Under the pieces are notes generated by a model that did no database searches, was not told the origin of the DNA, and saw only the letters and a program-made list of their open reading frames with translations. The position numbers were made by a program, and so were the translations under genes. Below, piece by piece: positions 50,998 to 63,713 of a stretch of 64,000 nt of DNA. Every line of letters starts with the position of its first letter. The stretch's first letter is position 1. The stretch covers positions 43,128 to 107,127 of IMG/VR virus record IMGVR_UViG_3300042296_000700. One strand, 5' to 3'. Source of the DNA: a virus.

Positions 50998-51151
50998 CAC
51001 GCCTCACCAACGTCGTCACATACTCAGTCAACGTCATGTCATAACCATCAGCCAACGAAACCATCAAATTTTTAAGTTCGCCGTCTATTTTGAGGGTGAG
51101 GGTTGTTTTGTGTTTGGTTGTTGTTTGGGGTGGGCGTCCGTTGCGTTTCAT
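50981..51151 (-). CDS. Ribbon-helix-helix DNA-binding protein
   Basis: 56 residues from the ATG at 51151, which overlaps the upstream gene's stop; an earlier ATG at 51169 is inside that gene. HKTTLTLKIDGELKNLMVSL then DMTLTEYVTTLVRRDAE is a CopG/Arc-type ribbon-helix-helix. It would bind DNA as a dimer and may regulate the minus-strand operon. The plus-strand composition flips from A/C-rich to G/T-rich inside it. Confidence 0.65.
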   Translation of the reverse strand: MKRNGRPPQTTTKHKTTLTLKIDGELKNLMVSLADGYDMTLTEYVTTLVRRDAEGS

Positions 51152-51579
51152 TGGTAGGTCTCGTTCCATTGTTTCGTATAGATTTGTATGAAGTGTTCTC
51201 TGTCTGAGTTTGTGTGCAACGCGTAGCCGCCTACCGTTTTGATGGCTTGTTGTAGAACAGGATGCAAATTGGCGGGGGTGTAGTTCCCTGAGTCTAGTTG
51301 TGAGGCGAGGTCACGGTAGATTGCCCATGCTTCGTGTGGGGTTGGGGCGAGGGTGTCGGTGTGCATGTCTCGGACACGACGGTATACGGTGCCTGCTCTG
51401 GGCATGTAGGTGTCTTCTCTGGCTATGACGTCTATAGCAGTGTGGCATTCAGTGGCGTCAAGTTCTCCGATGATTCTCCACCAAGCGTTATACGTCGCCT
51501 TAGGGGCACCAGTGTTAGCCAACTGGTTCCAATGCGCGAGCACACGGTCAACTATCTCTACACATTCTTCCTTAGTCAT
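51148..51579 (-). CDS. Probable replicative helicase loader/organiser (G39P-like)
   Basis: 143 residues, AAAGGG before the start. MTKEECVEIVDRVLAHWNQL then ATYNAWWRIIGELDATECHT and MPRAGTVYRRVRD match the helical N-terminal domain of phage helicase loaders of the G39P type. The remainder is helical and may touch the helicase. The helicase itself is not in this window. Confidence 0.6.
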   Translation of the reverse strand: MTKEECVEIVDRVLAHWNQLANTGAPKATYNAWWRIIGELDATECHTAIDVIAREDTYMPRAGTVYRRVRDMHTDTLAPTPHEAWAIYRDLASQLDSGNYTPANLHPVLQQAIKTVGGYALHTNSDREHFIQIYTKQWNETYQ

Positions 51580-51958
51580 CTAAGAACCCTTTCGCACCTA
51601 AGTTACCGTCCGCTTCAGTGAGGTCACAGAACTTCTCAATATGGTCTGCGTCCCTGAAGATGAGTTCTAGGCTGTCATACCGTTTCTTGTTACGGTTCGC
51701 TCCCATATGGAAGGGTGACTTGGAACAGCCTGTGATTGCTTTCATGCAGTCGTCTATGCCGTAGTCGTGTATCGCTGCGCCGATGAAGAGTTTGCGCTTG
51801 TCATCCAACTTAGTTCTGCTAGATTTATTTGAACGCAGTGTGGTGACCCAGAAGTCAAACACTTTCTGGATGTCAGCATCAGCCACAGTTCTGCACTTGG
51901 CAGCCTGACCAACAGCGCGACCTTTTCTTACGGGTTCAGTAGAAGGAAGAGAGTCCAT
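51572..51958 (-). CDS. Replication-associated phage protein
   Basis: 128 residues from the ATG at 51958; the longer frame begins with TTG and a hydrophobic stretch and is rejected. DIQKVFDFWVTTLRSNKSSR, then DDCMKAITGCSKSPFHMG and YDSLELIFRDADHIEKF form a domain common in phage replication proteins beside helicase loaders. The gene overlaps the loader gene by 8 bp, supporting a joint replication role. Confidence 0.6.
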   Translation of the reverse strand: MDSLPSTEPVRKGRAVGQAAKCRTVADADIQKVFDFWVTTLRSNKSSRTKLDDKRKLFIGAAIHDYGIDDCMKAITGCSKSPFHMGANRNKKRYDSLELIFRDADHIEKFCDLTEADGNLGAKGFLDD

Positions 51959-52191
51959 AGGTTTCAGTATACCCAGTTGGACCACATCAAGCAATAGGAA
52001 GAAGAGACCAAATACGAGCAATACAATCCAAGTAGAAAAGAACTTGGAAGAACATCTTCATCAATAACCCATTTGAAGGGGGTCTGGGGGAAACTTTACG
52101 AATCCTCAAAACCTTTTCGGCCATGCAGTGGCTGACCCTCGTATCTGTCTGGGAATGAGAGTTCATTTGGTTTCGGCGCCGAATGAATTTG

Positions 52192-52212
52192 TTTACGCCA
52201 CCGTCGCTCTTG
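52192..52212 (-). repeat. Dispersed DGGV repeat, copy 1
   Basis: Core GACGGTGGCGTA on the minus strand, preceded by CAAGAGC. It lies in a non-coding stretch. Confidence 0.75.
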
Positions 52213-52373
52213 GGGAGAGACGATAACTATGCAGAACTGAAGATAGCAGCATGAGCCCCGCTCCGCAAGCATCTAAGCAACAAAAATAGACAAGGTGTAA
52301 TATTTGTTGCGGGACTGTCTATGTTATTCTTGACTAAGACCGCATGCCCCCCGTGCGGCTCTAAGGCGTTGTA

Positions 52374-52421
52374 GACGGGACGGGTATGTGAGAGTTCCTC
52401 GTCCCGTCTCCGCTTTAGCGG
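52374..52421 (-). terminator. Terminator-like hairpins after minus-strand gene
   Basis: GACGGGACG/CGTCCCGTC (52374-52408) and CCGCTTTAGCGG (52410-52421) lie just after the TAA at 52427-52429. No long T-tract is present, so rho-independent ending is only likely. Confidence 0.45.
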
Positions 52422-52426
52422 GGCTG

Positions 52427-52906
52427 TTACTCTGCCAGTGGTAGAAGGAACAGGCGGGACTCCCACATGATTCCGATGGCTGCGTATCCGATGACATCCA
52501 TAATGTTGTCTTCTATAGATTCGTTGTTGGGCTTTACGCCACCGTCAGGACTTGAGAGTAGGTTTTCTAGTCTTGCGACTTTGTCGTGCATTCTGACCAT
52601 GAGTCCTTGCCGCCCGAAGCGGCGGATGTTCTCGTGTCCGTAGTCGCGCTGCTTCCTTATGAGGGTCGCATGAACGTTGTCAATCGTTTGCGGGATGCCG
52701 CGCTTGATTGAGAGTTCTACTGCATCGCCGCCGATGACAGCCCACATTGCTGTGGCTTTCTGGAATCCTGCTGGCGCGTGGAATAGGTCGTCTATGAAAC
52801 CATCCAAATCGCTGCGTACTTGTAGGAGGTCAGCGCGAGGCTTCTTCCTTACTTGAGTGAAGATTCCGTCTAGTGCCCAACGTGCTGCTTCGTCCCATGT
52901 TTCCAT
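52427..52906 (-). CDS. Nucleotide-modification-associated (DUF1599-like) protein
   Basis: 159 residues. TLIRKQRDYGHENIRRFG then GLMVRMHDKVARLENLL and NESIEDNIMDVIGYAAI are the pattern of the DUF1599/nucleotide-modification domain linked to MazG-like pyrophosphohydrolases. The loop SSPDGGVKPN (residues 118-127) is encoded by an in-frame copy of the dispersed repeat. A role in base or nucleotide metabolism is inferred. The leader contains another repeat copy. Confidence 0.7.
   Translation of the reverse strand: METWDEAARWALDGIFTQVRKKPRADLLQVRSDLDGFIDDLFHAPAGFQKATAMWAVIGGDAVELSIKRGIPQTIDNVHATLIRKQRDYGHENIRRFGRQGLMVRMHDKVARLENLLSSPDGGVKPNNESIEDNIMDVIGYAAIGIMWESRLFLLPLAE
52533..52554 (-). repeat. 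Dispersed DGGV repeat, copy 2 (in coding sequence)
   Basis: Read in frame as SSPDGGVKP within the DUF1599-like protein, in a loop between two conserved helices. Confidence 0.75.
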
Positions 52907-52927
52907 TTAGTATTTTTATCACATGGC

Positions 52928-52949
52928 TATACGCCACCGTCGTTACTTG
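52928..52949 (-). repeat. Dispersed DGGV repeat, copy 3
   Basis: Between two minus genes, 3 bp after the upstream stop; GGTGGC and GCCA arms flank GTATA. Confidence 0.75.
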
Positions 52950-52952
52950 CAA

Positions 52953-53261
52953 CTACTCTTCATCAAACTTTTTTGATGCTGCCAGTAGTGCCATCTGCAT
53001 CAGGTTGGACATCGCCATCGCTGCTGCTGTTGCTTCTCCGAACTCTTCTGCATTCCGTTCAATTGCACGTGCGAACTTCTCTTCTACGAAACGTTCGTTA
53101 TATAACACGACAATATTATCGTCTGTTAACTGGATGACGACTGGTCCGTCTTCGTCCATTGTTTCTGGGGGTGCGGTGATTACCGCGACATGCTGTCCTG
53201 TTTCTGGGTTTTCAAACCGAAACATTACTTCTGGGTCTTCGCTACCAAATGACATTTCCAT
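52953..53261 (-). CDS. Unknown acidic protein
   Basis: 102 residues with CAGGAG before the start. The first half is beta-rich (EVMFRFENPETGQHVAVITA, VVIQLTDDNIVVLYN), the second an Ala/Met-rich helix (EATAAAMAMSNLMQMALLAA). No family was recognised. The repeat just downstream separates it from the DUF1599-like gene. Confidence 0.65.
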   Translation of the reverse strand: MEMSFGSEDPEVMFRFENPETGQHVAVITAPPETMDEDGPVVIQLTDDNIVVLYNERFVEEKFARAIERNAEEFGEATAAAMAMSNLMQMALLAASKKFDEE

Positions 53262-53298
53262 ATTTAATTCTCCTGTGTTTAAGTTTACAGCGGGTGGC

Positions 53299-53320
53299 TA
53301 TACGCCACCGTCATTACTTG
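53299..53320 (-). repeat. Dispersed DGGV repeat, copy 4 (supplies a stop codon)
   Basis: Its CAAGTAA part ends the zinc-ribbon gene at 53314. GGTGGC-GTATA-GCCACC forms a perfect 6-bp hairpin. Confidence 0.75.
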
Positions 53321-53514
53321 CGAATGATTTCCCAGTCTTCTTTTTTTGTGCATCCTCCTTCAAGGAAGTCTTGTAGTGCTTCTGCTGTTCCGCACTCGGA
53401 GCAGATTTCTGTTTTGTTGTCGGTTCGTGAGATTGCACCAGGGTATTCGCCTGGTTGAAGATTGTTGGGAATCCAGTTGTCGCAACACCGTGGACATATG
53501 TTTGGGATTTTCAT
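53314..53514 (-). CDS. Zinc-ribbon phage protein
   Basis: 66 residues; the ATG at 53514 is chosen because GGAAGG lies before it. Two Cys pairs (ICPRC and ICSEC) flank EYPGAISRTDNKTE, a small zinc-ribbon protein very common in actinobacterial phages. It may bind nucleic acid or a host protein. Its stop codon lies in the dispersed repeat. Confidence 0.75.
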   Translation of the reverse strand: MKIPNICPRCCDNWIPNNLQPGEYPGAISRTDNKTEICSECGTAEALQDFLEGGCTKKEDWEIIRK

Positions 53515-53624
53515 GAGTTTGCCTTCCATTCGCAATATGCGTTGTAGTTTTCGTCGTTGTCTGGGTTTAAACCGTTTTCTTTACACCAGTCGTCGTACGT
53601 TGGTGTCGCTTCAAAAATCACCAT
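53511..53624 (-). CDS. Very small protein of the early operon
   Basis: 37 residues: ATG at 53624 after AAGGAG, ending in an ATGA overlap with the zinc-ribbon gene. Acidic and aromatic (TPTYDDWCKENG, NYNAYCEWKANS). The good ribosome site, overlaps on both sides and lack of any competing frame support it as real. Function unknown. Confidence 0.6.
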   Translation of the reverse strand: MVIFEATPTYDDWCKENGLNPDNDENYNAYCEWKANS

Positions 53625-53890
53625 AGCGGGTTCTCCTTGTTTATTTTCCAGTTGGTTGGGTGGTTGGCGCGCGACTCCATGGCTGATTGTGATTCATCAT
53701 GCCATTCTTCGTATGTGCGTGCCATGGTTGAAGTGAGTTCGCCGTCTTCATAGAAGTCAAATATTACACCTTCGTTAGTTACAACAAGAATCAAAATGTT
53801 TTGACTGATGTCGTCTGCGTCTGGTGGAAGTTGAATAACGATTTCTTGGCGTGAATCAAACCTGCAGTTGAAATCAATGCTGTTGTTCAT
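53618..53890 (-). CDS. Unknown small protein
   Basis: 90 residues with TCGGAGGAG before the start. Beta-rich first half (EIVIQLPPDADDISQNILIL), then EEWHDESQSAMESRANHP. It overlaps the 37-residue gene by 7 bp. No family was recognised. Confidence 0.65.
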   Translation of the reverse strand: MNNSIDFNCRFDSRQEIVIQLPPDADDISQNILILVVTNEGVIFDFYEDGELTSTMARTYEEWHDESQSAMESRANHPTNWKINKENPLW

Positions 53891-54120
53891 ACGCGCTCCT
53901 CCGACTTTTCAATGACTGCATCTGCTATCCATTCGGAGAGTTCTACGCCTGCGTCTTCCCAGTCGTCAAACTCTTTGCAGATTTCTGCCCATGCTTCTTT
54001 GGTGAGAACATTCTCGTCGTCGCTGTCGTAATCGTACGATGGCTTTTCCCAGTACAACACACAGATGTCGTCGTCTGGATTTAGTAGTTTGATTTGTCTA
54101 ACAAGGTCTGCAACTTTCAT
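53887..54120 (-). CDS. Unknown acidic small protein
   Basis: 77 residues in an ATGA-type overlap chain; AGGAG precedes the start. VADLVRQIKLLNPDDDICVL is a pattern seen in many small phage proteins, followed by acidic helices (WAEICKEFDDWED). Function unknown. Confidence 0.65.
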   Translation of the reverse strand: MKVADLVRQIKLLNPDDDICVLYWEKPSYDYDSDDENVLTKEAWAEICKEFDDWEDAGVELSEWIADAVIEKSEERV

Positions 54121-54368
54121 GATGCGTACTCCTCTACGAATAGGTGACCTGCGTCGTTTCCTTCTTGGTCTGAACTTACGATTACATAAGTGTTGTCAGT
54201 GAACTCAATAACGATTGTGTTTACATAACAGTTGTTGTGGGCTCGTTGGTACCAACCCATTCCTTTGACTTCTTCTTCAACCATGTGGCGCACTCGCTTG
54301 ATTGTTTTACCTGCGAGTCCCCTGATGGCGGGGTCAAAGTGTTCCGTGTGTTTAAGTGTTGCGGGCAT
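54117..54368 (-). CDS. Unknown small protein
   Basis: 83 residues, GCAGGAG before the start. Beta-rich end (CYVNTIVIEFTDNTYVIVSS). It is the first gene of a five-gene overlapping run and is preceded by a consensus promoter at 54492-54520. Confidence 0.65.
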   Translation of the reverse strand: MPATLKHTEHFDPAIRGLAGKTIKRVRHMVEEEVKGMGWYQRAHNNCYVNTIVIEFTDNTYVIVSSDQEGNDAGHLFVEEYAS

Positions 54369-54491
54369 TACTCCTGCTTTCGTTTAGTAGTTTTACAGCG
54401 AGGATGGAACGATTCCCCGACGGAACCTTTTTAGACTCTCGTTTACCCACTTGATTGCGGGCGTATAAGTGTCTACCATCCAGCAACAGAG

Positions 54492-54520
54492 AGTATAACA
54501 CCTCTCTGTGTATTTGTCAA
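54492..54520 (-). promoter_or_regulatory. Consensus sigma70-type promoter
   Basis: On the minus strand TTGACA, 17 bp, TATACT. It directs the operon beginning at 54368. Confidence 0.7.
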
Positions 54521-54717
54521 TCCATCTCAAAGATGAGATGCTCGCTATTGACATCACGAGCGATACCAGTAACCCATGCAGGATTTTCTGTGGGGTTTAC
54601 GCCACCGTCACCTCTTGCAATGAGTACTTCAACTTTGTCAATCCCATTTGTGATTGCATCGTTAAAGTTTTCTGCTTCAACATCTGTTGTGACCATTACT
54701 GTTACTCGGTATTTCAT
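54517..54717 (-). CDS. Unknown small protein carrying a DGGV repeat
   Basis: 66 residues; the ATG at 54717 has GGAGGT 7 bp upstream, so the longer frame is rejected. TVMVTTDVEAENFNDAITNG is a common small-protein fold start. ARGDGGVNPTENP (35-47) is encoded by an in-frame copy of the dispersed repeat. The gene ends inside the promoter of the next operon. Confidence 0.7.
   Translation of the reverse strand: MKYRVTVMVTTDVEAENFNDAITNGIDKVEVLIARGDGGVNPTENPAWVTGIARDVNSEHLIFEMD
54596..54617 (-). repeat. Dispersed DGGV repeat, copy 5 (in coding sequence)
   Basis: Encodes RGDGGVNP in the 66-residue protein. Confidence 0.75.
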
Positions 54718-55049
54718 ATTGCTACCTCCGTGAACTTGCCGTACTGTTGTACGAACTCTGTTGGTGTGTGTGTGAACCCTTTCTCCCATGCGGATTCTCC
54801 GCACGCTTGTAGGAGAGCGAGTCTTGCGATGGCAAGAGAGACAGTTGGATAATGTTCCAACCATTCGTTGGCAACAAAGTCAGTCCACCACAGATAACCG
54901 CTGTCGTCTGCGCCTTGTGAAACTATTGCTTTCGCATCGTCGTTGATGATGACAGAGAACAGTTCTTTTGCTGATTCCCAGTCATGTTGGTTTGGTGTGT
55001 AATCGGGGTGTGCCGATTCAATGAGTTCTTGTAAGTTTGTCATGTTCAT
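54714..55049 (-). CDS. Unknown small protein
   Basis: 111 residues; two close ATG codons (55049 and 55043) are both possible. Helical, with FSVIINDDAKAIVSQ and LAIARLALLQACGESAWEKG. It overlaps the genes on both sides by 4 bp. No family was recognised. Confidence 0.65.
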   Translation of the reverse strand: MNMTNLQELIESAHPDYTPNQHDWESAKELFSVIINDDAKAIVSQGADDSGYLWWTDFVANEWLEHYPTVSLAIARLALLQACGESAWEKGFTHTPTEFVQQYGKFTEVAI

Positions 55050-55282
55050 CCCATTTCTTCTAGTAGTTCGTCTAATGCTTCGTAGTCAAGTAAGTCGCTG
55101 AGCCACGGAACACCATCGGGTGTACCTGCTGAGACATATACGAGATAGTTTGTTGCGAAGTCTCGGTAGTTCACTTCTTTGCCGTAGGTCATAACCATTC
55201 GGTATAGTTGTTCGTCGTTAGCGAGCCACAGGTTTACATTCCATGTCTCTCGGTTTTTCCAACCGTTGTAAGTCGTTTCCAT
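55046..55282 (-). CDS. DUF7249-like phage protein
   Basis: 78 residues. YNGWKNRETWNVNLWLANDE is the signature of a small phage family (DUF7249 type) of unknown function. The conserved leader CTACTAGAAAAGGAAAACC lies directly before the ATG. Confidence 0.7.
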   Translation of the reverse strand: METTYNGWKNRETWNVNLWLANDEQLYRMVMTYGKEVNYRDFATNYLVYVSAGTPDGVPWLSDLLDYEALDELLEEMG

Positions 55283-55321
55283 GGTTTTCCTTTTCTAGTA
55301 GATTTATTTATTACAGCACCC

Positions 55322-55350
55322 ACTTTACAGTGGGGGTGTGACATGGTTAT
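55322..55350 (-). promoter_or_regulatory. GTGTnACAC-type promoter element (weak -35)
   Basis: Spacer reads ATGTCACACCCCCACTG, then TAAAGT as -10 inside CCCAC/GTGGG arms. The -35 is poor. It adjoins a copy of the dispersed repeat. Confidence 0.5.
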
Positions 55351-55369
55351 ATGCCACCGTTAGATGTTG
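55348..55369 (-). repeat. Dispersed DGGV repeat, copy 6 (diverged)
   Basis: Reads AACGGTGGCATATA; supplies the TAA stop of the gene upstream at 55360. Confidence 0.65.
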
Positions 55370-55803
55370 CGATTGTTGTAGATGTGAACGAGCCATTCCA
55401 TCAGGTTGGACTTGTATCCATCCCACACGCTGTCGCCACTCATAATCCAGTCAGAGAGGTCTTCTAAGTCTGTCTTGGTTGCTTCAGTCTGAATCCACTG
55501 GAGTGCTTTCCACTCTTTGTCTTCTTCTGTGTAAACTCCGCCCTCAACGAGCATTTGTGTTTCGTCTTTGATTGAGAGTGGAGAGTACGAGACTGCCCAC
55601 TTATATTTGTTGTCGCCCCAACCAGTGTCTCTGCCCATCTGTTCAATGGAGATTCCGCAACGCTCGCCGATATCGGAGAGTTCGCTGTCGCTCGCTTCTT
55701 CAAGTAGGTGAGAGTCGTAGTCGTTTAAGTCGTCTGTTTCCACAATGACGCAACCCTCAAGGTTGAGCACTGTTCCAGTTGTTTTGTCAATGATGAGTTT
55801 CAT
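55360..55803 (-). CDS. Unknown acidic protein
   Basis: 147 residues with GAAAGGTAAACC before the start. Mixed fold with LEGCVIVETDDLNDYDSHLL and a helical C-terminus (LEDLSDWIMSGDSVWDGYKS). It has its own consensus promoter. No family was recognised. Confidence 0.65.
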   Translation of the reverse strand: MKLIIDKTTGTVLNLEGCVIVETDDLNDYDSHLLEEASDSELSDIGERCGISIEQMGRDTGWGDNKYKWAVSYSPLSIKDETQMLVEGGVYTEEDKEWKALQWIQTEATKTDLEDLSDWIMSGDSVWDGYKSNLMEWLVHIYNNRNI

Positions 55804-55832
55804 GGTTTACCTTTCTAGTAAATACTTTAAGG

Positions 55833-55861
55833 AGTGTAACATACTCCCAGCCGTGTGTCAA
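55833..55861 (-). promoter_or_regulatory. Consensus sigma70-type promoter
   Basis: TTGACA, 17 bp, TACACT on the minus strand; the -10 end reads ATGTTACACT. It overlaps the stop of the upstream gene. Confidence 0.7.
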
Positions 55862-56151
55862 ATAGACACACCAGTTGATATTTGTGAAACGAGTTCGTAG
55901 TCCTCGCACAAGTCAATAGCCCATTCTGAGTGAGCAATGTTCCATGCGTTGGCGTAGTCCGTGTTAATCGCCTTAAGGAGACTGGCTAGTTCCTCGTGGG
56001 TCATGTGATAGAAGTACTCCTCGTGGAACTCGTTTTGCGTATCAGGGTTCCAAGTGTCTCCATCAAATGCGATGCGGACAACCTCAAATGAGTCTTGGTC
56101 GCCATCCCAAAAGATTTGGCACTCTATTTCTTTGTAGTGTTTAAGTTCCAT
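55858..56151 (-). CDS. Unknown acidic small protein
   Basis: 97 residues with GAAAGGTAAACG before the start. The first half is beta-rich (IECQIFWDGDQDSFEVVRIA), followed by a helical part (HEELASLLKAINTDYANAWN). No family was recognised. Confidence 0.65.
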   Translation of the reverse strand: MELKHYKEIECQIFWDGDQDSFEVVRIAFDGDTWNPDTQNEFHEEYFYHMTHEELASLLKAINTDYANAWNIAHSEWAIDLCEDYELVSQISTGVSI

Positions 56152-56210
56152 TGTCGTTTACCTTTCTAGTAAGTTGAAATGAGTATAACACATGGGTGTT
56201 ATATTTGCAA

Positions 56211-56378
56211 CTATTGGTTGCTTTCCTCTATAACGACTGGAGAGTCCGAAAGTGTGCTCTCGCCCTTGAGTTGAGCGATAGTCGCAAGAATCTCGTCGCA
56301 CTGGCGGTTGATATCCGCACAGATAGCGAGAGCCTTAGCCCGCTCGTCAAGTGTTAGTAGTTCAATGATGGGGTTCAT
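56211..56378 (-). CDS. Small helical protein
   Basis: 55 residues from the ATG at 56378, chosen for the AAAGGA ribosome site 7 bp before it. MNPIIELLTLDERAKALAIC then CDEILATIAQLKGE is helical. Two promoter-like elements lie upstream. Confidence 0.6.
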   Translation of the reverse strand: MNPIIELLTLDERAKALAICADINRQCDEILATIAQLKGESTLSDSPVVIEESNQ

Positions 56379-56409
56379 ATCTGTTCCTTTGTTTAGTAGG
56401 TATGCCCCC

Positions 56410-56438
56410 ATTATATCAAGGGGGTGTAACACAGTAAC
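56410..56438 (-). promoter_or_regulatory. GTGTnACAC-type promoter element
   Basis: GTTACT, spacer GTGTTACACCCCCTTGA, TATAAT. CCCCC and GGGGG arms surround the -10 box. Confidence 0.6.
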
Positions 56439-56478
56439 GATTGGTAGCCGTCAAAGTGTGCGCTCGTAAGCAAGACAC

Positions 56479-56507
56479 AATCTAGCATAGATTTATCCGA
56501 ATGTCAA
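56479..56507 (-). promoter_or_regulatory. Consensus -35 promoter
   Basis: TTGACA, 17 bp containing TTCGGATAAA, then TAGATT on the minus strand. Confidence 0.55.
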
Positions 56508-56692
56508 GTTATGTAGAAAATATAACCAGAACCAGAAGACCAGATTCTGGATGCGCCCGAGCGCGAGCCCCGTACACAAAACACAGCACAACAGCCCCGT
56601 ATCGCTGCGGCGGCAGCGGGACTAGTAAGGTAAGTCAAGAAATGTTCCCAGAGTTCACGCATGGCGGGGCTAACACGAACTAGTGTTCGCTC

Positions 56693-57094
56693 ATGAACGT
56701 TTCTCGCATTGACAACGCCACTCGCTGGCAAACACATCTGACTGCTTTACAACAGTTTGCTACCCGCACAGGTTCAGCCCGTGTACCCGCTTCCCATACA
56801 GAAGTCGTGGACGGACGCAACATTGCTCTCGGAGCATGGGTTGGGTACATGAGGCAACGCAACCGTGCTGGCTTGCTGTCGGCAGAACGCAAGTCAAACC
56901 TTGAGGCAATCTCAGGTTGGACTTGGGGTCCGCTTCGCCCAGGGCCAGCAACGAACACCGAACGAGATGAGAACATTCTCGTGCTTCGCTCTGAAGGTCT
57001 AAGCCTTGAGAAAATCGCAATGAAGTTCGGTATCTCCCGTCAGCGAGTTCATCAGATTGCTCGCTCTCACGCCTCATCAGATAACAATGGCTGA
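56693..57094 (+). CDS. Helicase-associated domain plus sigma-like helix-turn-helix protein
   Basis: 133 residues. Residues 10-75 (WQTHLTALQQFATRTGSARV, then LGAWVGYMRQRNRAGLLSAE) are the helicase-associated domain usually repeated in large helicases. The C-terminus (LRSEGLSLEKIAMKFGISRQ, RVHQIA) is a sigma70 region 4-like helix-turn-helix. It is one of only two plus-strand genes inside the minus-strand early block and has no clear ribosome site, so it may be leaderless. A DNA-binding regulator role is inferred. Confidence 0.7.
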   Translation: MNVSRIDNATRWQTHLTALQQFATRTGSARVPASHTEVVDGRNIALGAWVGYMRQRNRAGLLSAERKSNLEAISGWTWGPLRPGPATNTERDENILVLRSEGLSLEKIAMKFGISRQRVHQIARSHASSDNNG

Positions 57095-57383
57095 CAACGA
57101 CCAAAGTAAGTGGCGACTCGTAGACCCGAACTGGCGCATACCAGTTCATGAGTCAGAGATTCTCGCACCACCAACACCGCCTGATAAAGTTCCATTCATG
57201 ATTGCTCTCATGAAAATGCTTTGGGGATTCCTAACGCTTATTTCTTTTTGTGCTTTTGGTGTGTTTATAATCGCTCAGTTGTTGGAACTAGAACAAGTTG
57301 GTTACCGTGACGCTGTAGGAATCTCAGTAGTCCTTATCTTTCTGCGCGCGATAGACAAAACAACTTTCGGCAAAGTTTCGTAG
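57087..57383 (+). CDS. Small membrane protein
   Basis: 98 residues from the ATG at 57087, overlapping the previous gene by 8 bp. Two hydrophobic segments (ALMKMLWGFLTLISFCAFGV and AVGISVVLIFLRAI) follow a polar, Pro-rich N-terminus. Function unknown; possible superinfection or membrane-signal protein. Confidence 0.65.
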   Translation: MADNDQSKWRLVDPNWRIPVHESEILAPPTPPDKVPFMIALMKMLWGFLTLISFCAFGVFIIAQLLELEQVGYRDAVGISVVLIFLRAIDKTTFGKVS

Positions 57384-57392
57384 ATACAAAAC

Positions 57393-57420
57393 AACCCCTC
57401 AGGCTTTCGCCGTTGGGGTT
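57393..57420. terminator. Hairpin between convergent genes
   Basis: AACCCC/GGGGTT with an inner GGC/GCC. It lies between genes that converge, so it may serve both strands. Only a weak T-run follows. Confidence 0.5.
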
Positions 57421-57505
57421 ATCTCGGAGCAGATGAAGGGTGAAAGGAGTAAAGTCCCTCACCTCTCTATTGGTCGTACGCCGACTAAACGCCGTACCAG
57501 CAGGG

Positions 57506-58990
57506 TCAGAGGTTTTCCCCCTGAACCTTTCGCCATGTTTGCTTCCAACAATGTGGATACCACATGACTGGTTTCGTACCTGACTTCAGTTGTTCTAGAG
57601 CCTTGACTCCATCATCAACATTCATTCGCACGATAACTTTCTCTTTACGGACTTGCTTTATACAGTCCATTGCGAGAAGGTCGTTGTAACCATGATTTAT
57701 TCCGTGAACAAGTCCGTCCGTGATGAACAGAACTGGTGCGTTCTTGTGTTGCTTCTGCTTGATTGCCCAACGCAGAGCCTCACCATCAACACCGTTGCCA
57801 CCGCTACGCTCAGGTACTGAATCAACCATGCGACCTTTTTCCGCAAGAATGAACAAGTTGTCTTTCTTGTTTTGTGAGTCAGTTGAGTAAACCGCAACAG
57901 TTGCTCCGGGAGCCTGTTCCATAATTTTCACAAGGTCTGCTGTGTTGAGTCGCATAGAACCTGAACCGTCAATGATGACAACGCCACCATTGCCTTTCTT
58001 GGTTGCGTCAAAGATACGACGCTGAGGGTCAATCAACATATTGCCAATGCGACGTGGATTGCGTCCCATGTCAGTTGCCCGACGCTTGCGACCTAATCCA
58101 CCTTGTGCGTGGCGTGTGAGTGGGAGTTTGCGAACTTTGAGTTCTGCCCAAGATATCGCACGACCACCTTCGCTGGCAGGGTTGATTTCTTTCAGTTTTT
58201 CTTTGCTGACCTTTGGCTTCGCAGTTTGTTTGTCTGCGTTGCCAATCTTGTTTTCGGTAGCCTCGCCGTTTGCGTCTGGCTTTACGCCACCGTCGTTACT
58301 TGACTGACCTTCTTGACCTTCCTCGTTCTCCGCCTCGTCTTGAGGTGGGTTTGCGATTCGGTCAATCATCTCTGCGATTGACTCGGTGTAAGTGAATCCC
58401 AATGGTGCGAGTCCACTTCGTTCATCAACTGCTGTGCTTCCAAGATTCTGTCGCTTGTCTGCTTTCAGAATCAGTTTGGAAACTTTCTTGGAGATGTCTC
58501 GGAGTGTGTCTGCCCATTCTTTGTTCTCTCTACGGACTCCAGTAATGAATTGCTTGAGTCCTGCCGAGTTTGTGAATCCGACAGTTGTATAGACCGCACT
58601 CGCCCAGTCGCCACTCTTGGCAACTCGTACGCCTGCCTCAAGTTCTGAACCGTCTGAGAGATGAGTCATCACATCAAACCCTGCCTTCTGAGCAAGGAAG
58701 TTCACTCGTGCTTCCTCAACCATCATGAGTGCCGTGTGCGTAGCAATCTCTCGCTCAACCCACGACTTCATGTCGTTCGCTGGTGAAACTTTTGCGTGAA
58801 TCATCTCGTGAGCACGAATACAACGCTCTACTTCACCGTCATTGACAGGAACAATCATTACCTTGTCCACAATGTTGGTCATGGGGAGTCCACGAACTGG
58901 CGCACAAGTGTCAATAGCCCACTTGCCGAGTCCTGTGTCCCTACGCCCCAACATTTCTGGCATTGGTTGGTGGTTCATTGTCGTAACCAT
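57506..58990 (-). CDS. VWA-domain protein with HExxH motif, partner of MoxR-type ATPase
   Basis: 494 residues, beginning in a TAATG overlap with the ATPase gene. HEMIH at 61-65 with later VEEARVNFLA (91-100) looks like a zinc metallopeptidase-type site. A Glu/Gln-rich linker (about 215-265) contains SSNDGGVKP, encoded by the dispersed repeat. The C-terminal VWA domain has a complete metal site start DGSGSM (341-346) and later FITDG. MoxR/VWA pairs act as chaperone-like systems, for example in metal insertion. The target in a phage is unknown. Confidence 0.8.
   Translation of the reverse strand: MVTTMNHQPMPEMLGRRDTGLGKWAIDTCAPVRGLPMTNIVDKVMIVPVNDGEVERCIRAHEMIHAKVSPANDMKSWVEREIATHTALMMVEEARVNFLAQKAGFDVMTHLSDGSELEAGVRVAKSGDWASAVYTTVGFTNSAGLKQFITGVRRENKEWADTLRDISKKVSKLILKADKRQNLGSTAVDERSGLAPLGFTYTESIAEMIDRIANPPQDEAENEEGQEGQSSNDGGVKPDANGEATENKIGNADKQTAKPKVSKEKLKEINPASEGGRAISWAELKVRKLPLTRHAQGGLGRKRRATDMGRNPRRIGNMLIDPQRRIFDATKKGNGGVVIIDGSGSMRLNTADLVKIMEQAPGATVAVYSTDSQNKKDNLFILAEKGRMVDSVPERSGGNGVDGEALRWAIKQKQHKNAPVLFITDGLVHGINHGYNDLLAMDCIKQVRKEKVIVRMNVDDGVKALEQLKSGTKPVMWYPHCWKQTWRKVQGENL
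58281..58302 (-). repeat. Dispersed DGGV repeat, copy 7 (in coding sequence)
   Basis: Encodes SSNDGGVKP in the flexible linker of the VWA protein. Confidence 0.75.
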
Positions 58991-59709
58991 TACGCACCAA
59001 CCTTGTCTAGTGCGATTGCGTCCATGAAGGATTGCGCACGGTCACGGAACACCATCTTGCTCGCCTTCTCGTCACCCAACTGCTTGCGGAGTGAATCAAA
59101 TGCGTAGAAGGTGCGGAGACTGATACGACGCTCGCCTGCGTCTGCCATACGAATTGCGTATCCACGCAAGTCTGCTGACAGTTTGAGTAGTGCGTCAGGG
59201 TGAGGTTGGTTGATTCTGATTGCCACAGGGAATCGGTCTTTGAGTGCTTCGGGGAGTTCCCTCATGTCCTCAATGTTCGTTGTCATTACGACGCTGAATC
59301 CGTCTAGTGGGCGAAACTTGCGACCAGTATCAGGGTTTTCCCATGACGCTGATTCAGGTGAGTCAGTCATTGCGAGGAGTGTTGCGAACACATCTCCGCC
59401 TGCCTTGTCAATTTCGTCCACGACCAAACGACCGCCTCTGAGACCGTCGCCCTGCCATGCCTTGATTGCTTGACCGTCATTCCAACGCCACTCGCCATTG
59501 GCAGAGGGCTTGTAGTGTCCCTCAACTTGTGCGTTGGTCATGTCGTCGGTACAGATAAGACGGTGAGCCCCACCTGCGACATCACCAAAGGTCATGCCTG
59601 CGAATGTTTTGCCAGTCCCTGGGGGACCAAATAAGATGACTCGGTCAATGCCTGCTACGAGAGCGTCATTGACTTCCTGCCAACAATCGGGGAGAGTTTC
59701 TTGATTCAT
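58990..59709 (-). CDS. MoxR/CobS-type AAA+ ATPase
   Basis: 239 residues. Walker A GPPGTGKT (28-35), Walker B LVVDEID (95-101), sensor 1 TTN (143-145) and a likely arginine finger in ALKDRF (Arg159). HYKPSANGEWRWNDGQAI is the loop typical of the MoxR/CobS/gas-vesicle GvpN group. It is followed by its VWA partner and has a consensus promoter and the conserved AAAAGGAAAAAACC leader. It would remodel proteins or complexes using ATP. Confidence 0.88.
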   Translation of the reverse strand: MNQETLPDCWQEVNDALVAGIDRVILFGPPGTGKTFAGMTFGDVAGGAHRLICTDDMTNAQVEGHYKPSANGEWRWNDGQAIKAWQGDGLRGGRLVVDEIDKAGGDVFATLLAMTDSPESASWENPDTGRKFRPLDGFSVVMTTNIEDMRELPEALKDRFPVAIRINQPHPDALLKLSADLRGYAIRMADAGERRISLRTFYAFDSLRKQLGDEKASKMVFRDRAQSFMDAIALDKVGA

Positions 59710-59754
59710 GGTTTTTTCCTTTTCTAGGTTTAGTCGGTTTATCTAACAAAGGGA

Positions 59755-59783
59755 AGTGTATCACCTTTGCTAGTGTCTGTCAA
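59755..59783 (-). promoter_or_regulatory. Consensus promoter for the ATPase/VWA operon
   Basis: TTGACA, 17 bp, TACACT on the minus strand, 46 bp before the start codon. Confidence 0.7.
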
Positions 59784-59831
59784 GTCGTAGTGACTTTTCA
59801 GTTAGAGGGAGTTTCCCTCTCAGCAACCCCC

Positions 59832-59860
59832 ATCTTACAACAGGGGTGTAACACAGTTAC
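59832..59860 (-). promoter_or_regulatory. GTGTnACAC-type promoter element
   Basis: GTAACT, spacer GTGTTACACCCCTGTTG, TAAGAT. It follows the stop of the upstream gene directly and lies before the consensus promoter of the ATPase operon. Confidence 0.6.
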
Positions 59861-60613
59861 TTAGACGCTGGTTCGGATTGCGTCAAAGACTGTCAGTATG
59901 TGTGTGTCAGGGTGGGCGAGTGGTTTCAACTCAAGTCCATCAACAACAGAAAGACAAGTATCTTTAGCGTCAGTCATCATGTCGCCCAGTCTCTCCCAGT
60001 CAAAGTCCTCATCATTGAAGTCAAGTTCGCCGTATCCCTCAATTTGAGAAACATCACCGTCAGAAGTTGCCACCTGTCCATCAACAATCTTGGTAGCACC
60101 AAAGAATCCGTTGCCACCTTCCTCGTATGTGATGGTGAATGTCAATGTTGGGAACATCGTGGAGATATGAGCCAGTCCGTCAATCGGTGGTGACCACGCT
60201 GAGTCAAAAGAGAAGTCAAGGTGACTGTCACTATGACCATTGAGATAAGTGTCGCAATCGCCCCACTTAGTTCCCCAATGTGAACATTGCCAGTCGTACC
60301 AATCTCTCGCACCATACTTGGTGAGATTTATTTGATTCTGTGCGTAGCCAGTCGCATTGCTGGAGACGAGTTCGTCGTACCACTCTTGAGTCATCTCGCC
60401 TTTGTCTAACATTACCTTCCAGTTTGCGTTAGGTTCTGCTGTGTAGTGACCAGACTTGGTGTCCGTGAGTTCTTGTGGAGTTGGATACAGACCGCTAAGA
60501 ATGTTGTAACGGTCATTGCCGTTCTCATCTGTGCTTCTCACGCCTGCTACAAACTTTTGTAGTGATTCGTAGTCGCCTGTGATATTTAGATTGTTGTTAC
60601 ACCAGTTTGGCAT
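59861..60613 (-). CDS. MPNW-family (DUF1281/Api92-like) protein
   Basis: 250 residues. The start MPNWCNNNLNITGDYESLQK is the signature of the Api92/DUF1281-type family found on phages and mobile elements. GTKWGDCDTYLN and WSPPIDGLAHISTMFPTLTF are its later conserved parts, forming a ferredoxin-like fold. Function is unknown. The conserved TACTAGACAAAGG leader precedes the start. Confidence 0.8.
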   Translation of the reverse strand: MPNWCNNNLNITGDYESLQKFVAGVRSTDENGNDRYNILSGLYPTPQELTDTKSGHYTAEPNANWKVMLDKGEMTQEWYDELVSSNATGYAQNQINLTKYGARDWYDWQCSHWGTKWGDCDTYLNGHSDSHLDFSFDSAWSPPIDGLAHISTMFPTLTFTITYEEGGNGFFGATKIVDGQVATSDGDVSQIEGYGELDFNDEDFDWERLGDMMTDAKDTCLSVVDGLELKPLAHPDTHILTVFDAIRTSV

Positions 60614-60643
60614 TTTGTTTCCTTTGTCTAGTAGTCGTTAGTT

Positions 60644-60672
60644 ATCTTACACTAGGGGTGTGAGATAGTTCA
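60644..60672 (-). promoter_or_regulatory. GTGTnACAC-related promoter element
   Basis: TGAACT, spacer ATCTCACACCCCTAGTG, TAAGAT. Confidence 0.55.
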
Positions 60673-60683
60673 GCGTGAGTAGG

Positions 60684-61082
60684 TCACGCTACCTTTGCGG
60701 TAGCGTCACCTTGCTCAACATTGTCGTTCAGGTCATACACACGGAACTGCGTGTATGGAGTGGACTTAGTGACTGCCTCTGCGACATCACTCTTGATGAT
60801 TCCAAGTTCTACTGCTGACTGAAACTTCTTGCTATCAACTTCGGTCTTGGTGACTTTCTTGAGTGTGGCACTACTCACCATGTCGGTAAGTGTCTTGAGA
60901 TTGTATGAGCGACGATTAGCCGTGATGAGCATGACCTTTTCGTTGCCGACAATGACTGTCTCTGTGCCGTTCTTGGCGAGGGCTTCTTTGAGGATTTCCT
61001 CTGCCTGTGCCTTTGCTTGCTTTGCGACCTCTAGGGCTCGCTCTGCTTCTAGGAACATCTGACCTGCTTGTAATGTATTCAT
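60684..61082 (-). CDS. Unknown protein with N-terminal coiled coil
   Basis: 132 residues. MFLEAERALEVAKQAKAQAE and EEILKEALAKNGTET form a coiled coil, followed by a beta pair (ETVIVGNEKVMLITANRRSY) and helices. Similar layouts occur in small phage proteins of unknown role. It has a promoter at 61133-61161 and the TACTAGAAAGG leader. Confidence 0.65.
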   Translation of the reverse strand: MNTLQAGQMFLEAERALEVAKQAKAQAEEILKEALAKNGTETVIVGNEKVMLITANRRSYNLKTLTDMVSSATLKKVTKTEVDSKKFQSAVELGIIKSDVAEAVTKSTPYTQFRVYDLNDNVEQGDATAKVA

Positions 61083-61132
61083 TGGACTCTACCTTTCTAG
61101 TAGTTGTTTAGTCGGTATTGCTTATGTTAGGG

Positions 61133-61161
61133 AGTGTATCAGGTCTGTTTGCTTTTCGCAA
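61133..61161 (-). promoter_or_regulatory. Promoter
   Basis: TTGCGA, 17 bp, TACACT on the minus strand, serving the gene at 61082. TTATCCGA lies just upstream. Confidence 0.6.
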
Positions 61162-61195
61162 CTTTATCCGAAACACTTTATTGCTTATGTCTAAC

Positions 61196-61224
61196 ACTAT
61201 ATCAGAGGGGTGTTACACAGTTCC
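61196..61224 (-). promoter_or_regulatory. GTGTnACAC-type promoter element
   Basis: GGAACT, spacer GTGTAACACCCCTCTGA, TATAGT. Confidence 0.55.
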
Positions 61225-61247
61225 CTGTGCTGTTCCCCTCACACTCT

Positions 61248-61379
61248 CTATAACGAACGATTCGCCTCAAAGTGTGCGGTCATTATTACAGATGGGTGTG
61301 ACACGCTTTTGCTTGTCTCTATCTATAACGAACAGAGCAATCAAATGTGTGCGCTCATTATGACAGAGGGGTGTTACAT
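61248..61379. repeat. Direct repeats, two 75-bp-spaced units
   Basis: CTATAACGAAC occurs at 61248 and 61323, and the GTGTnACA motif begins 48 bp later in both. CAAAGTGTGCG-like and TCATTAT segments are also in register. A diverged unit lies at 63584-63653 and a fragment near 56452. Confidence 0.7.
61283..61311 (-). promoter_or_regulatory. GTGTnACAC-type element (poor -35)
   Basis: Spacer CGTGTCACACCCATCTG, -10 TAATAA; no clear -35. Confidence 0.4.
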
Positions 61380-61385
61380 AGTTGG
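61357..61385 (-). promoter_or_regulatory. GTGTnACAC-related element
   Basis: CCAACT, spacer ATGTAACACCCCTCTGT, CATAAT. Confidence 0.5.
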
Positions 61386-61387
61386 GT

Positions 61388-61424
61388 TGTGGATAAACCT
61401 GTGGATAACTTTGCCTGTGGATAA
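61388..61424 (+). other. Three perfect DnaA boxes
   Basis: TGTGGATAA (complement of TTATCCACA) at 61388-61396, 61400-61408 and 61416-61424, all in one orientation and spaced 12 and 16 bp. Confidence 0.75.
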
Positions 61425-61452
61425 CTGTCAAACAAACTTATCCGACGCTGGC

Positions 61453-61473
61453 TATACGCCACCGTCGCTCTTG
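61453..61473 (-). repeat. Dispersed DGGV repeat, copy 8
   Basis: Within CGACGgTGGC-GTATA-GCCAgCGTCG, a 10-bp stem with one mismatch. Confidence 0.75.
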
Positions 61474-61513
61474 GAAGCACACACACATACGAGCACACGC
61501 TCGCGCGCGCGTA

Positions 61514-61586
61514 AGCCCCGTTGGGCAACACCGCTTGCGGGGCTCCCACTCTCGCTGACATCTTCGCTGCGCAAGATGCGGGGCTG
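61514..61586 (-). terminator. Terminator-like hairpins
   Basis: AGCCCCG/CGGGGCT (61514-61544) and CATCTT/AAGATG (61559-61578) follow the stop of the gene at 61587. Confidence 0.5.
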
Positions 61587-61874
61587 TTAGTACTTCGGAA
61601 GTTTATGGATTATCGGTGATGCTTCTTCTTTCCGATAAAACTCTTCGTGTGAAGTCCATAACTTTCCTTCGTCACTCCACTTCTTTGCGAGTGAGAAAAC
61701 GATTACCATAAAATCCCATTCGGTAATCCCCCAGTCGGAGAAGTTCTCCTCAAACTGGTTATTCCAAAACTCGGTGAGAATGTTAGCGAGTGCTTCATGC
61801 CCGCTTTCTACTCCGAGTGAGTAATAGTTCTCTGAGAGAATGTTCATGATGTCGGTTTGTAGTTCAGTAGTCAT
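61587..61874 (-). CDS. Unknown acidic small protein
   Basis: 95 residues, CGGAGA before the start. Helical with aromatic residues (NILTEFWNNQFEENFSDWGI, WDFMVIVFSLAKKWSDEGK). It overlaps the previous gene by 11 bp. No family was recognised. Confidence 0.65.
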   Translation of the reverse strand: MTTELQTDIMNILSENYYSLGVESGHEALANILTEFWNNQFEENFSDWGITEWDFMVIVFSLAKKWSDEGKLWTSHEEFYRKEEASPIIHKLPKY

Positions 61875-62106
61875 CTAGGGTGTCTCCGTTTTCGTCTTGG
61901 AAGATGAGGTCTCTTGCTCGTGCGTTGCGCATCATGTCAAGTGCTTCATTCTCTATGTAGAGAATGACATCATCAAGGGTGAAGTTCATTTCGTCGCCAT
62001 TGAGAACACGATTGTCCTCTTTTAGCGTTTGGATAACTTCCTCAACTCCGTATGTGGTTACCCACATGACATTTATTCTTTCGGGCATTGTTTCTTGTGT
62101 GCTCAT
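61864..62106 (-). CDS. Unknown acidic small protein
   Basis: 80 residues with AAAAAAGGACAACC before the start. VMWVTTYGVEEVIQTLKEDN and VILYIENEALDMMRNARARD make a small alpha/beta protein. Its promoter contains an 11-bp perfect inverted repeat. Confidence 0.65.
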   Translation of the reverse strand: MSTQETMPERINVMWVTTYGVEEVIQTLKEDNRVLNGDEMNFTLDDVILYIENEALDMMRNARARDLIFQDENGDTLDDY

Positions 62107-62142
62107 GGTTGTCCTTTTTTAGTAGTTACAGCAACACCCCTC

Positions 62143-62171
62143 ACTATACATGAGGGGTGTTATAGGGATTA
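62143..62171 (-). promoter_or_regulatory. Promoter element inside an 11-bp inverted repeat
   Basis: -10 TATAGT, spacer CTATAACACCCCTCATG, poor -35 (TAATCC). AACACCCCTCA (62133-62143) and TGAGGGGTGTT (62151-62161) are perfect arms around the -10 region. Confidence 0.55.
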
Positions 62172-62435
62172 TTCCTGTGCGTAGAGCGTGGCTTCATCAA
62201 AGTAGTCGGAGTCATATTTGCGAATAAACTTAATCGCTTCTTCCATTGAGTTTGCTGAAATCATTTTGTTGTAATCCGCGTATGTGCCTGTGTTCATGGT
62301 TGCTTCTACACGATAGAAGTTTCCATCTAATTCTCGTACTTCTAGGTTATGGAAATACAATCCTGTGCCATTCCAGATTATGAGGTCTCCCTCGCCCTGC
62401 GTGAAGTGTCCTTCTGTGTTGTTTTCAGTTGTCAT
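62169..62435 (-). CDS. Unknown small protein
   Basis: 88 residues. Beta-rich (GDLIIWNGTGLYFHNLEVRE, FYRVEATMNTGTYAD), then a helix (SMEEAIKFIRKYDSDYFDEA). The ribosome site is weak (AAGAAG). Own promoter at 62488-62516. Confidence 0.65.
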   Translation of the reverse strand: MTTENNTEGHFTQGEGDLIIWNGTGLYFHNLEVRELDGNFYRVEATMNTGTYADYNKMISANSMEEAIKFIRKYDSDYFDEATLYAQE

Positions 62436-62487
62436 TAGTTTCTTCTTTTCCAGCCCCTTTCAGAGAGCATAGTAGGTTTACATTTAC

Positions 62488-62516
62488 AGTATAACAGGTT
62501 ATGTAACATAACGCAA
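62488..62516 (-). promoter_or_regulatory. Promoter with palindromic spacer
   Basis: TTGCGT, 17 bp, TATACT. The spacer includes TTATGTTACATAA, a near-perfect 13-bp palindrome, but no CCCC. Confidence 0.6.
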
Positions 62517-62565
62517 CCTGACAGCAGAGCAACCACTCCCCGTGAGGAGTGGTCACCCATAGTGG

Positions 62566-63081
62566 TTAGTACCAACAGATGAGTCCGTCGGTGAACTCAC
62601 TTGCCCACTTCAGATACCAAGATGCGTACCTGAGGTCTGGAGTGATGTCCTCACCACCCATGCGGTAAACACCATCATCTTCCTGACATTCGTCAAACGC
62701 CTCGTCAATGACTTGGGCAAGGGTGAGACATGAGCCTTTTGACTTCTCTGTCCCATCTTCGCTATCGCCATAGAACGAGAAGTCGTCGCTATCGCCGTAT
62801 CCGATTGCTTCCAAGAGGTAGTTGCCATACTTGCCTCTGTACCAACAGTCAGTACCGAACATTCCATAGACTGGATTGCCGAGTGCTTCTTTGTCTTGCT
62901 TATTGAGTTCGGTGACATAGGGGCAACCGCCACACGCTTGCGTAGCCTTACAGTCAATGGCAGTCATTACTGACCCATCTTCTTCCAGTATTGGTTGTCC
63001 GTCTTTGTTTAGTCGTGGTGTGATGACCGCAGTTCCCTGCGTTTTACACGGGTATTGCTTGGGGATATTGTCTAGTCCCAT
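62566..63081 (-). CDS. MGLDN-family phage protein with cysteines
   Basis: 171 residues. The start MGLDNIPKQYPCKTQGTAV and CKATQACGGCPYVT are typical of a phage family with several conserved cysteines, perhaps a metal site. The end RYASWYLKWASEFTDGLICW is also characteristic. Function is unknown. A consensus promoter lies upstream. Confidence 0.7.
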   Translation of the reverse strand: MGLDNIPKQYPCKTQGTAVITPRLNKDGQPILEEDGSVMTAIDCKATQACGGCPYVTELNKQDKEALGNPVYGMFGTDCWYRGKYGNYLLEAIGYGDSDDFSFYGDSEDGTEKSKGSCLTLAQVIDEAFDECQEDDGVYRMGGEDITPDLRYASWYLKWASEFTDGLICWY

Positions 63082-63113
63082 TTGCTTCTCCTTTGTTTAG
63101 GTTTATACAGCAC

Positions 63114-63142
63114 AGTATAACAGGGGGGTGTCATACTGTCAA
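63114..63142 (-). promoter_or_regulatory. Consensus promoter with CACCCC spacer
   Basis: TTGACA, spacer GTATGACACCCCCCTGT, TATACT. ACAGTAT and ATACTGT form outer arms. Confidence 0.7.
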
Positions 63143-63149
63143 ACTCTGT

Positions 63150-63461
63150 TCAGATTGCGAACAGAGCCATGAGGTGGTCGGGTGCGTCATAGTTCTCACC
63201 GTCATAAACGCCCTTAGGTGAGAGCGCACCGACGAGAACAATGTTCCCGACGAGGTGACGCTGGAACAAGATGCTTGCCGTGAGGTTTGGCTCAAGTCCC
63301 CAAATGAGACCCTCGTCATTGACATAGCCAACGAAGTCATCTGCTCGGACTACATCTATAAGACCGCCAACTGCGTCTTGGAGAAACTTGAGCGAGTCTT
63401 GCTCAGGAATGTCCACAACTCGTGGGCGACTATCTGTTGGGATAAGTATTGCCTTTGTCAT
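63150..63461 (-). CDS. DUF3846 protein
   Basis: 103 residues, AAGGAG before the start. AILIPTDSRPRVVDI, LQDAVGGLIDVV, and YVNDEGLIWGLEPNLTASIL then VGNIVLVGALSP are the DUF3846 pattern. Such proteins are common in actinobacterial phages and mobile elements, with no known function. Confidence 0.8.
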   Translation of the reverse strand: MTKAILIPTDSRPRVVDIPEQDSLKFLQDAVGGLIDVVRADDFVGYVNDEGLIWGLEPNLTASILFQRHLVGNIVLVGALSPKGVYDGENYDAPDHLMALFAI

Positions 63462-63493
63462 TTCTAAACTCCTTGTTTAGTAGGTATATGTTA

Positions 63494-63523
63494 AGTATAA
63501 CAGGTGGGTGTATGTTCTGTCAA
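63494..63523 (-). promoter_or_regulatory. Consensus promoter for DUF3846 gene
   Basis: TTGACA, 18 bp including ACACCCACC, TATACT on the minus strand. Confidence 0.65.
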
Positions 63524-63558
63524 GTTTATCCGAAAGACTCACTCACTTGCTTCCCCCC

Positions 63559-63587
63559 ATTGTACTGAAGGGGTGTTACATAGATAG
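63559..63587 (-). promoter_or_regulatory. GTGTnACAC-related element
   Basis: Spacer ATGTAACACCCCTTCAG, -10 TACAAT, weak -35 (CTATCT); CCCC/GGGG arms flank the -10. Confidence 0.45.
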
Positions 63588-63624
63588 AACGAACAAACCT
63601 ATCCAAAGTGTGCGTTTTTTTTAT

Positions 63625-63653
63625 TACATAGCAGAGGGGTGTGACACAGTTAC
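63625..63653 (-). promoter_or_regulatory. GTGTnACAC-type promoter element
   Basis: GTAACT, spacer GTGTCACACCCCTCTGC, TATGTA. Confidence 0.5.
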
Positions 63654-63692
63654 AAGGTCAGCAGTAATCAGAAACTCAATTTTTTCACGGGC

Positions 63693-63713
63693 TATCGGCT
63701 ACCGTCGCTCTTG
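63693..63713 (-). repeat. Dispersed DGGV repeat, copy 9 (diverged)
   Basis: Reads CAAGAGCGACGGTAGCCGATA on the minus strand in part; two core positions differ. Confidence 0.6.

Follow-up and report, generated by a model that had tools for sequence, protein, structure and literature searches.

A one-orientation array of candidate binding sites for an HA-HTH protein in uncultured large phages

Copies of the element in the window

The window examined here is a stretch of 64,000 nucleotides (positions 43128-107127) of the 107,127-base virus record IMGVR_UViG_3300042296_000700, and it contains a short dispersed element with the core GACGGTGGCGTA. Nine copies, seven exact and two degenerate, lie within 52.2-63.7 kb of the window, all on the minus strand, which agrees with a first-pass annotation that had described nine copies of one orientation in 11.5 kb. 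The exact cores occupy positions 52194-52205, 52535-52546, 52930-52941, 53301-53312, 54598-54609, 58283-58294 and 61455-61466. When up to two mismatches were allowed, the window yielded 17 matches to GACGGTGGCGTA against 3.15 expected, and 17 was reached in none of 100 shuffles. A scan of the whole 107-kb contig with up to one mismatch returned exactly seven matches, all on the reverse strand, and none for a reversed-pattern control; no exact or one-mismatch copy was found in the contig outside the 52.2-63.7 kb interval.

Copies of the element are found between genes, at stop codons and within genes. Copy 1 (52189-52212, CAAGAGCGACGGTGGCGTAAACAA) is intergenic and is the final copy ahead of the initiator genes described below. 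Copy 2 (52530-52553) lies in frame in a DUF1599-like gene, where it encodes part of SSPDGGVKP; the element is also present at this position in the related genomes G003 and G027, and a variant element occupies it in L280 and L282. Copy 3 (52925-52948) is intergenic and directly follows a TAG stop, and the gene upstream of copy 4 (53296-53319) ends at a TAA (53314-53316) supplied by the left spacer of this copy. Copy 5 (54593-54616) is in frame in a 66-residue protein (ARGDGGVNP), and the degenerate copy 6 (55346-55369, AACGGTGGCATATAACC; core AACGGTGGCATA at 55350-55361) overlaps a TAA stop at 55360-55362. Copy 7 (58278-58301) is in frame in a VWA gene (SSNDGGVKP), copy 8 (61450-61473) is located within a long intergenic region, and copy 9 (63690-63713) has a variant core, GACGGTAGCCGATAGCC (also given as GACGGTAGCCGA), with similar copies in the relative G003 (L064). 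The three in-frame DGGV copies and the two stop-codon copies were correctly placed and framed in the first-pass annotation.

Architecture of the site and constraint on its DNA

Scans of IMG/VR with the core detected further sets of the element on many contigs, each set in one orientation. The element is widespread among large uncultured phages, whose hosts are probably Actinobacteria. We infer these hosts from WhiB and a proteasome-subunit-like protein in G003 and from a primase with best matches to Arthrobacter phages (~30% identity). A logo built from 208 non-redundant copies reads (C/A)WA-N4-[TC]GACGGTGGCGGA[AT][AG]G[CG], in which positions 0-6 are almost invariant, and the short form of the consensus in relatives, (C/A)WA-N4-[TC]GACGGTGGCGGAWAG, is linear and asymmetric and contains no hairpin. 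Two core types were distinguished, GGAAAG in the main type (GACGGTGGCGGAAAG) and GATTTC in a variant clade (CGGTnnCGATTTC); the corresponding element forms are GACGGTGGCGTATAGCC for the window type and CGGTGTCGATTTC for the variant clade as represented by L282.

Some copies can form the hairpin GGTGGC-GTATA-GCC proposed at first pass, but the structure is not conserved in relatives. The C at +14 of its right arm is present in only 131 of the 208 copies, whole genomes carry GGTGGCGGAAAGGAA, in which the arm is absent, and the variant CGGTnnCGATTTC likewise has no hairpin, so that the element lacks the conserved inverted repeat of a REP-type sequence. Because the right arm is not conserved and is missing from whole genomes, we conclude that the site is linear and asymmetric. 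A role as an RNA hairpin or boxB-like antiterminator was rejected since the stem is not conserved, and a search of window positions 52-64 kb against Rfam found nothing above the curated score. To the left of the core, positions -12 to -4 show an identity of 0.41 within genomes versus 0.29 between genomes, and the outer flanks show little or no such difference; the left half is therefore genome-specific, and the core is shared between genomes. The CAAG that was noted ahead of the core is a local version of this left half.

Among orthologue-cluster loci, 129 copies are intergenic and 57 are within genes, which makes the element a short asymmetric site, repeated many times and found mainly in intergenic gaps, as stoperators are. 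In-gene copies are read in two frames, as TVAES (23) or DGGGK (26), and seldom in the third, as RWRK (5); they are often at protein ends. Across the window, G003 and G027, codons within the element are identical at 28 of 29 shared residues, compared with 46-78% outside it; the pairs in this comparison are not independent, and the sole exception sits at a misplaced alignment gap. A DGGVKP or DGGGKP loop in the DUF1599-like protein goes together with the element, and homologues without it carry other loops. DGGV loops on unrelated DNA, which the first-pass annotation had named as a refutation of its reading, were looked for and not found. The in-frame copies reflect constraint at the level of DNA, and they advise caution: what looks like a peptide motif in a phage loop, DGGxK for example, can be a disguised DNA site.

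Polarity of the array and its candidate reader

Large genomes contain about 7-13 clustered copies each, in a single orientation and set 2-4 kb, then 0.2-1.2 kb apart in the direction of the replication-initiator and helicase-loader genes. The exact sites of records 84-172 kb long are nearly all in a single region, and no record has more than one stray match outside it. Each array is spread over 9-23 kb, and the positions of its sites are largely orthologous among relatives. In eight of eight genomes, spacings measured along the direction of the sites begin at about 1-4.7 kb and shorten to 0.2-1.2 kb. In G068 the array crosses the ends of the record, which suggests circular permutation.

We compared the orientation of sites with that of genes by using home-made gene models, which are based on a simple codon model, and orthologue clusters. 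Backbone genes (VWA, MoxR-type AAA, initiator and loader) are on the array strand throughout. Genes of the far region, for example the orthologues of window 61587-61874 and 63150-63461, vary in strand: some genomes have them on the array strand, but G065, L129, L180, L200, G043 and L146 have them on the opposite one, and the polarity of the sites is unchanged. Likewise, a gene pair is inverted within one inter-site interval between G061 and G027, and two blocks are exchanged around one site between L129 and L180, with no site flipped in either case. In-gene copies face the direction of their gene in 53 cases and oppose it in 4. Since the orientation of sites remains fixed when gene strands change, it belongs to the genome and not to transcription; the sites run one way along the genome independently of genes, as Ter sites do, and do not track transcription as stoperators do.

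On the strand opposite the array, the window encodes a 133-residue protein (56693-57094, plus strand) that combines an HA domain (PF03457; E=6.9e-15, score 55.5 bits, curated cut-off 28.4) with a helix-turn-helix (HTH) resembling sigma region 4 (Sigma70_r4, E=8e-6), and this HA-HTH protein is our candidate reader of the sites. Of the 26 array loci sets, 19 include its gene, in every case opposite the array, and the recognition-helix residues SRQR.HQI are invariant. We also retrieved loci by the HA-HTH protein alone (80 of 324 loci, a few of them from contigs already in the sample). In 78 of these, 437 exact elements lie opposite the gene and none on its strand, among the matches listed, and at least two elements are present in 72 of the 78; removal of redundancy left a strand ratio of 222:0 in 41 loci. 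All of 12 large records encode exactly one HA protein, opposite the array. A fold search with a model of the protein (mean pLDDT 85) returned only weak matches, which include a resolvase HTH and a small domain solved by nuclear magnetic resonance and titled A6KY75 (in the PDB, a putative helicase).

In named phages, neither a relative of the HA-HTH protein nor a convincing copy of the element was found; the Pontimonas match is a lone copy within a gene for an exonuclease and has no array around it. Bacterial genomes gave nine matches to the element, which is near chance, including one on a contig of an acIV actinobacterial metagenome-assembled genome that has no HA-HTH match. In the papers searched, the core string had only three matches, all unrelated.

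Six loci that belong to a divergent clade of the HA-HTH protein do not contain the main element, and an open search there yielded CGGTnnCGATTTC. This variant occurs in four of the six loci as 37 copies opposite the HA-HTH gene and none on its strand, compared with two matches in control loci that total 1.07 Mb. In L280 and L282 the variant sits in the same DUF1599 loop as the main element. No other hint that the HA-HTH protein reads the site is as strong as this joint change of site and protein clade.

The dense end of the array adjoins genes that are predicted to function in replication. These encode, all on the minus strand, a protein with a replication initiator C-terminal domain (51572-51958), which matches only the C-terminal part of the phrog_16167 profile (positions 184-267, E=1.7e-17), and a helicase-loader-like protein (51148-51579; phrog_2289, E=6.6e-5). 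A small Arc-like, ribbon-helix-helix protein (50981-51151, minus strand) is an alternative candidate binder with a weak match to phrog_582 (E=0.037; E=1.2e-4 for the G027 orthologue). Three DnaA-box-like TTATCCACA sequences are located in 37 bp at 61388-61424 on the minus strand, 30-65 bp from copy 8, and no further exact copy occurs in the contig. They may mark a DnaA-dependent origin, and several TTATCCACA boxes are also found near array sites in L282 and G003 (L064). GC skew along the genome revealed no readable replication axis.

Other features of these phages were observed alongside the array. A second repeat family, TGTNACACCCCT-N4-TATAATG, is present on the minus strand at window 56182-63651 (families D1, D2 and D5) ahead of many early genes; it often follows a TTGACA-like sequence and looks like repeated promoters, and a 5' leader motif, CTACTAAACAAAGGA, recurs in the same interval. 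Two neighbouring genes, for a VWA protein and for an ATPase of the MoxR/AAA_5 type (window 57506-59709), are conserved as a pair next to the array in 16 of the 26 loci sets. Outside the window, the same contig encodes, among its structural genes, a 901-residue protein that weakly matches a PI3/PI4-kinase-like family (L056:7768-10473; PF00454, E=9e-7), and also a protein of the histone-deacetylase fold (PF00850) and a B12-type ribonucleotide reductase (L055:13721-14644 and L055:16623-18560). The proteasome-subunit-like protein of G003 (L063:4710-5672) adjoins WhiB, and its orthologues occur on the array-opposite strand in about ten array loci sets.

Interpretation and comparison with known systems

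Based on these comparisons, we consider it about 60% probable that the phage HA-HTH protein has its asymmetric binding sites in these repeats, which form a dispersed array, and we infer from sequence that this protein binds the element. The first-pass suggestion was more general, a binding site for a phage protein, and has good support, as the site is asymmetric, maintained at the DNA level, fixed in orientation and matched to one DNA-binding gene in both strand and variant. Several observations weigh against assigning the sites to the HA-HTH protein. L265 and L272 carry the protein, yet searches with both cores found no array there; these two loci may hold a third core. The array and the protein also share one viral lineage, so their linkage by itself is expected, and only the clade with switched specificity exceeds that expectation. 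Other backbone genes are about equally conserved among the loci sets (a 102-residue protein in 20 of 26, the initiator in 16 and the Arc-like protein in 14), which makes other conserved genes possible readers. In addition, the gene caller is home-made, and the association between sites and DnaA boxes is weak (11 of 21 intergenic boxes are near sites versus 29% of intergenic bases, all loci).

If the HA-HTH protein does read the array, it could serve from same-facing asymmetric sites as a landmark or polar barrier. Site polarity does not depend on the direction of genes, so the process acted on would run along the genome, such as fork movement, entry of a nuclease-helicase or DNA transfer. By analogy with Ter/Tus, we tentatively propose that the bound protein blocks in one direction, or marks the way for, a machine on this axis, either a replication fork or a nuclease-helicase, instead of RNA polymerase. 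The array looks like an undescribed one-way DNA control system and not a mobile hairpin, and it is possible, though far from assured, that such phages use one HA-HTH protein to read a polar array and give direction to a genome-axis process, and that the specificity can change in concert across every site of one genome.

Silencing of the stoperator type, in which the HA-HTH protein would stop elongation by RNA polymerase in the early region for early shut-off or lysogeny, is in our judgement unlikely. In its favour, the sites are asymmetric, occur in short intergenic gaps, at stop codons and where genes end and are confined to a region of small genes, in-gene copies mostly face gene direction (53:4), and the two-domain candidate reader and genome-specific half-site resemble those of cluster A repressors (PMC9283540). 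In several lineages, however, genes of the far region run against sites of fixed polarity, whereas L5-type sites are non-functional once reversed (PMC9283540). No tyrosine integrase, serine recombinase or ParA was found in the 12 large records, which may be incomplete, so that the absence is no proof; neither lysogeny nor partition is supported by these tested families. The sites were also considered as promoters for a T7-like single-subunit RNA polymerase and rejected, mainly since they face against genes in some lineages; a PF00940 search found no match in 17 records, which is no proof as control genomes also gave none.

An iteron-like array, at which sites gather the reader to start or control replication, would account for the position of the dense end beside the initiator and loader genes and for the DnaA-box cluster next to copy 8, and an initiator that matches only the C-terminal part of its profile could receive DNA recognition in trans. 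We regard this as quite improbable, given that the sites are spread over many kilobases while known iterons are tandem and local, and that the overall box association is weak. Exchange of small-gene cassettes at directional, integron-like recombination sites seems more doubtful still: sites are frequent at gene boundaries in one orientation, and the modules between them are swapped in L129 versus L180 or inverted in G061 versus G027 with site orientation kept, but no breakpoint was seen exactly at a site, copies lie inside conserved genes at largely orthologous positions, and no recombinase of the tested families was found. A small mobile palindromic element tolerated in protein loops, as proposed at first pass, has very little left to recommend it. 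Copies are numerous, those within genes are in loops and at protein ends, and some can form GGTGGC-GTATA-GCCACC; yet the palindrome is not conserved, positions are largely orthologous with similar spacing in eight genomes, and the element shows strand coupling to one gene and a concerted switch to a variant core.

The candidate site-reader pair is widespread among large uncultured phages and has natural specificity variants (GGAAAG versus GATTTC cores, and left halves particular to each genome), which are suited to study of the binding code. If the roadblock reading is true, these phages would encode a one-way barrier set beside replication genes, and the testable question becomes what moves along the phage genome and needs direction.

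Among phage systems, the cluster A stoperators of L5 and TipsytheTRex also comprise dispersed asymmetric sites in short intergenic gaps and a reader with two DNA-binding domains that include an HTH. Their orientation correlates with the direction of transcription (PMC9283540). The likeness to L5 stoperators raised at first pass holds as a functional analogy, in the dispersed asymmetric sites at gene ends and the two-domain reader, but does not extend to that link with transcription, since orientation here follows the genome. The stoperator reader is an immunity repressor with an HTH and a stoperator domain that stops elongation, whereas the candidate here has HA and HTH domains, no integrase was detected in the 12 large records, and the site consists of a core of about 14 bp with a variable left half. 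Stoperators are nonetheless the nearest phage analogy by anatomy of site and putative reader.

Other comparisons concern polarity and layout. Iterons are directly repeated sites of about 20 bp, tandem and local near initiator genes, whereas the sites here are dispersed over 9-23 kb and are not tandem. REP and Rickettsia palindromic elements also have copies both inside reading frames and between genes; the element here has no conserved palindrome and, on the evidence, is not mobile. Chi and KOPS are short polar motifs distributed genome-wide, which share polarity along the genome axis with the present element, here about 14-22 bp long and restricted to about ten copies in one region. The nearest working analogy is Ter/Tus: the Ter sites of Escherichia coli, read by Tus, are asymmetric, about 20 bp long and in one orientation per genome arm with gene direction irrelevant, and the phage sites share this size, asymmetry, single orientation and independence of gene direction. 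In contrast to Ter, the phage sites form a dense series 0.2-4 kb apart, no Tus relative came to light, although no search was aimed at one, and the candidate reader matches PF03457 and Sigma70_r4.

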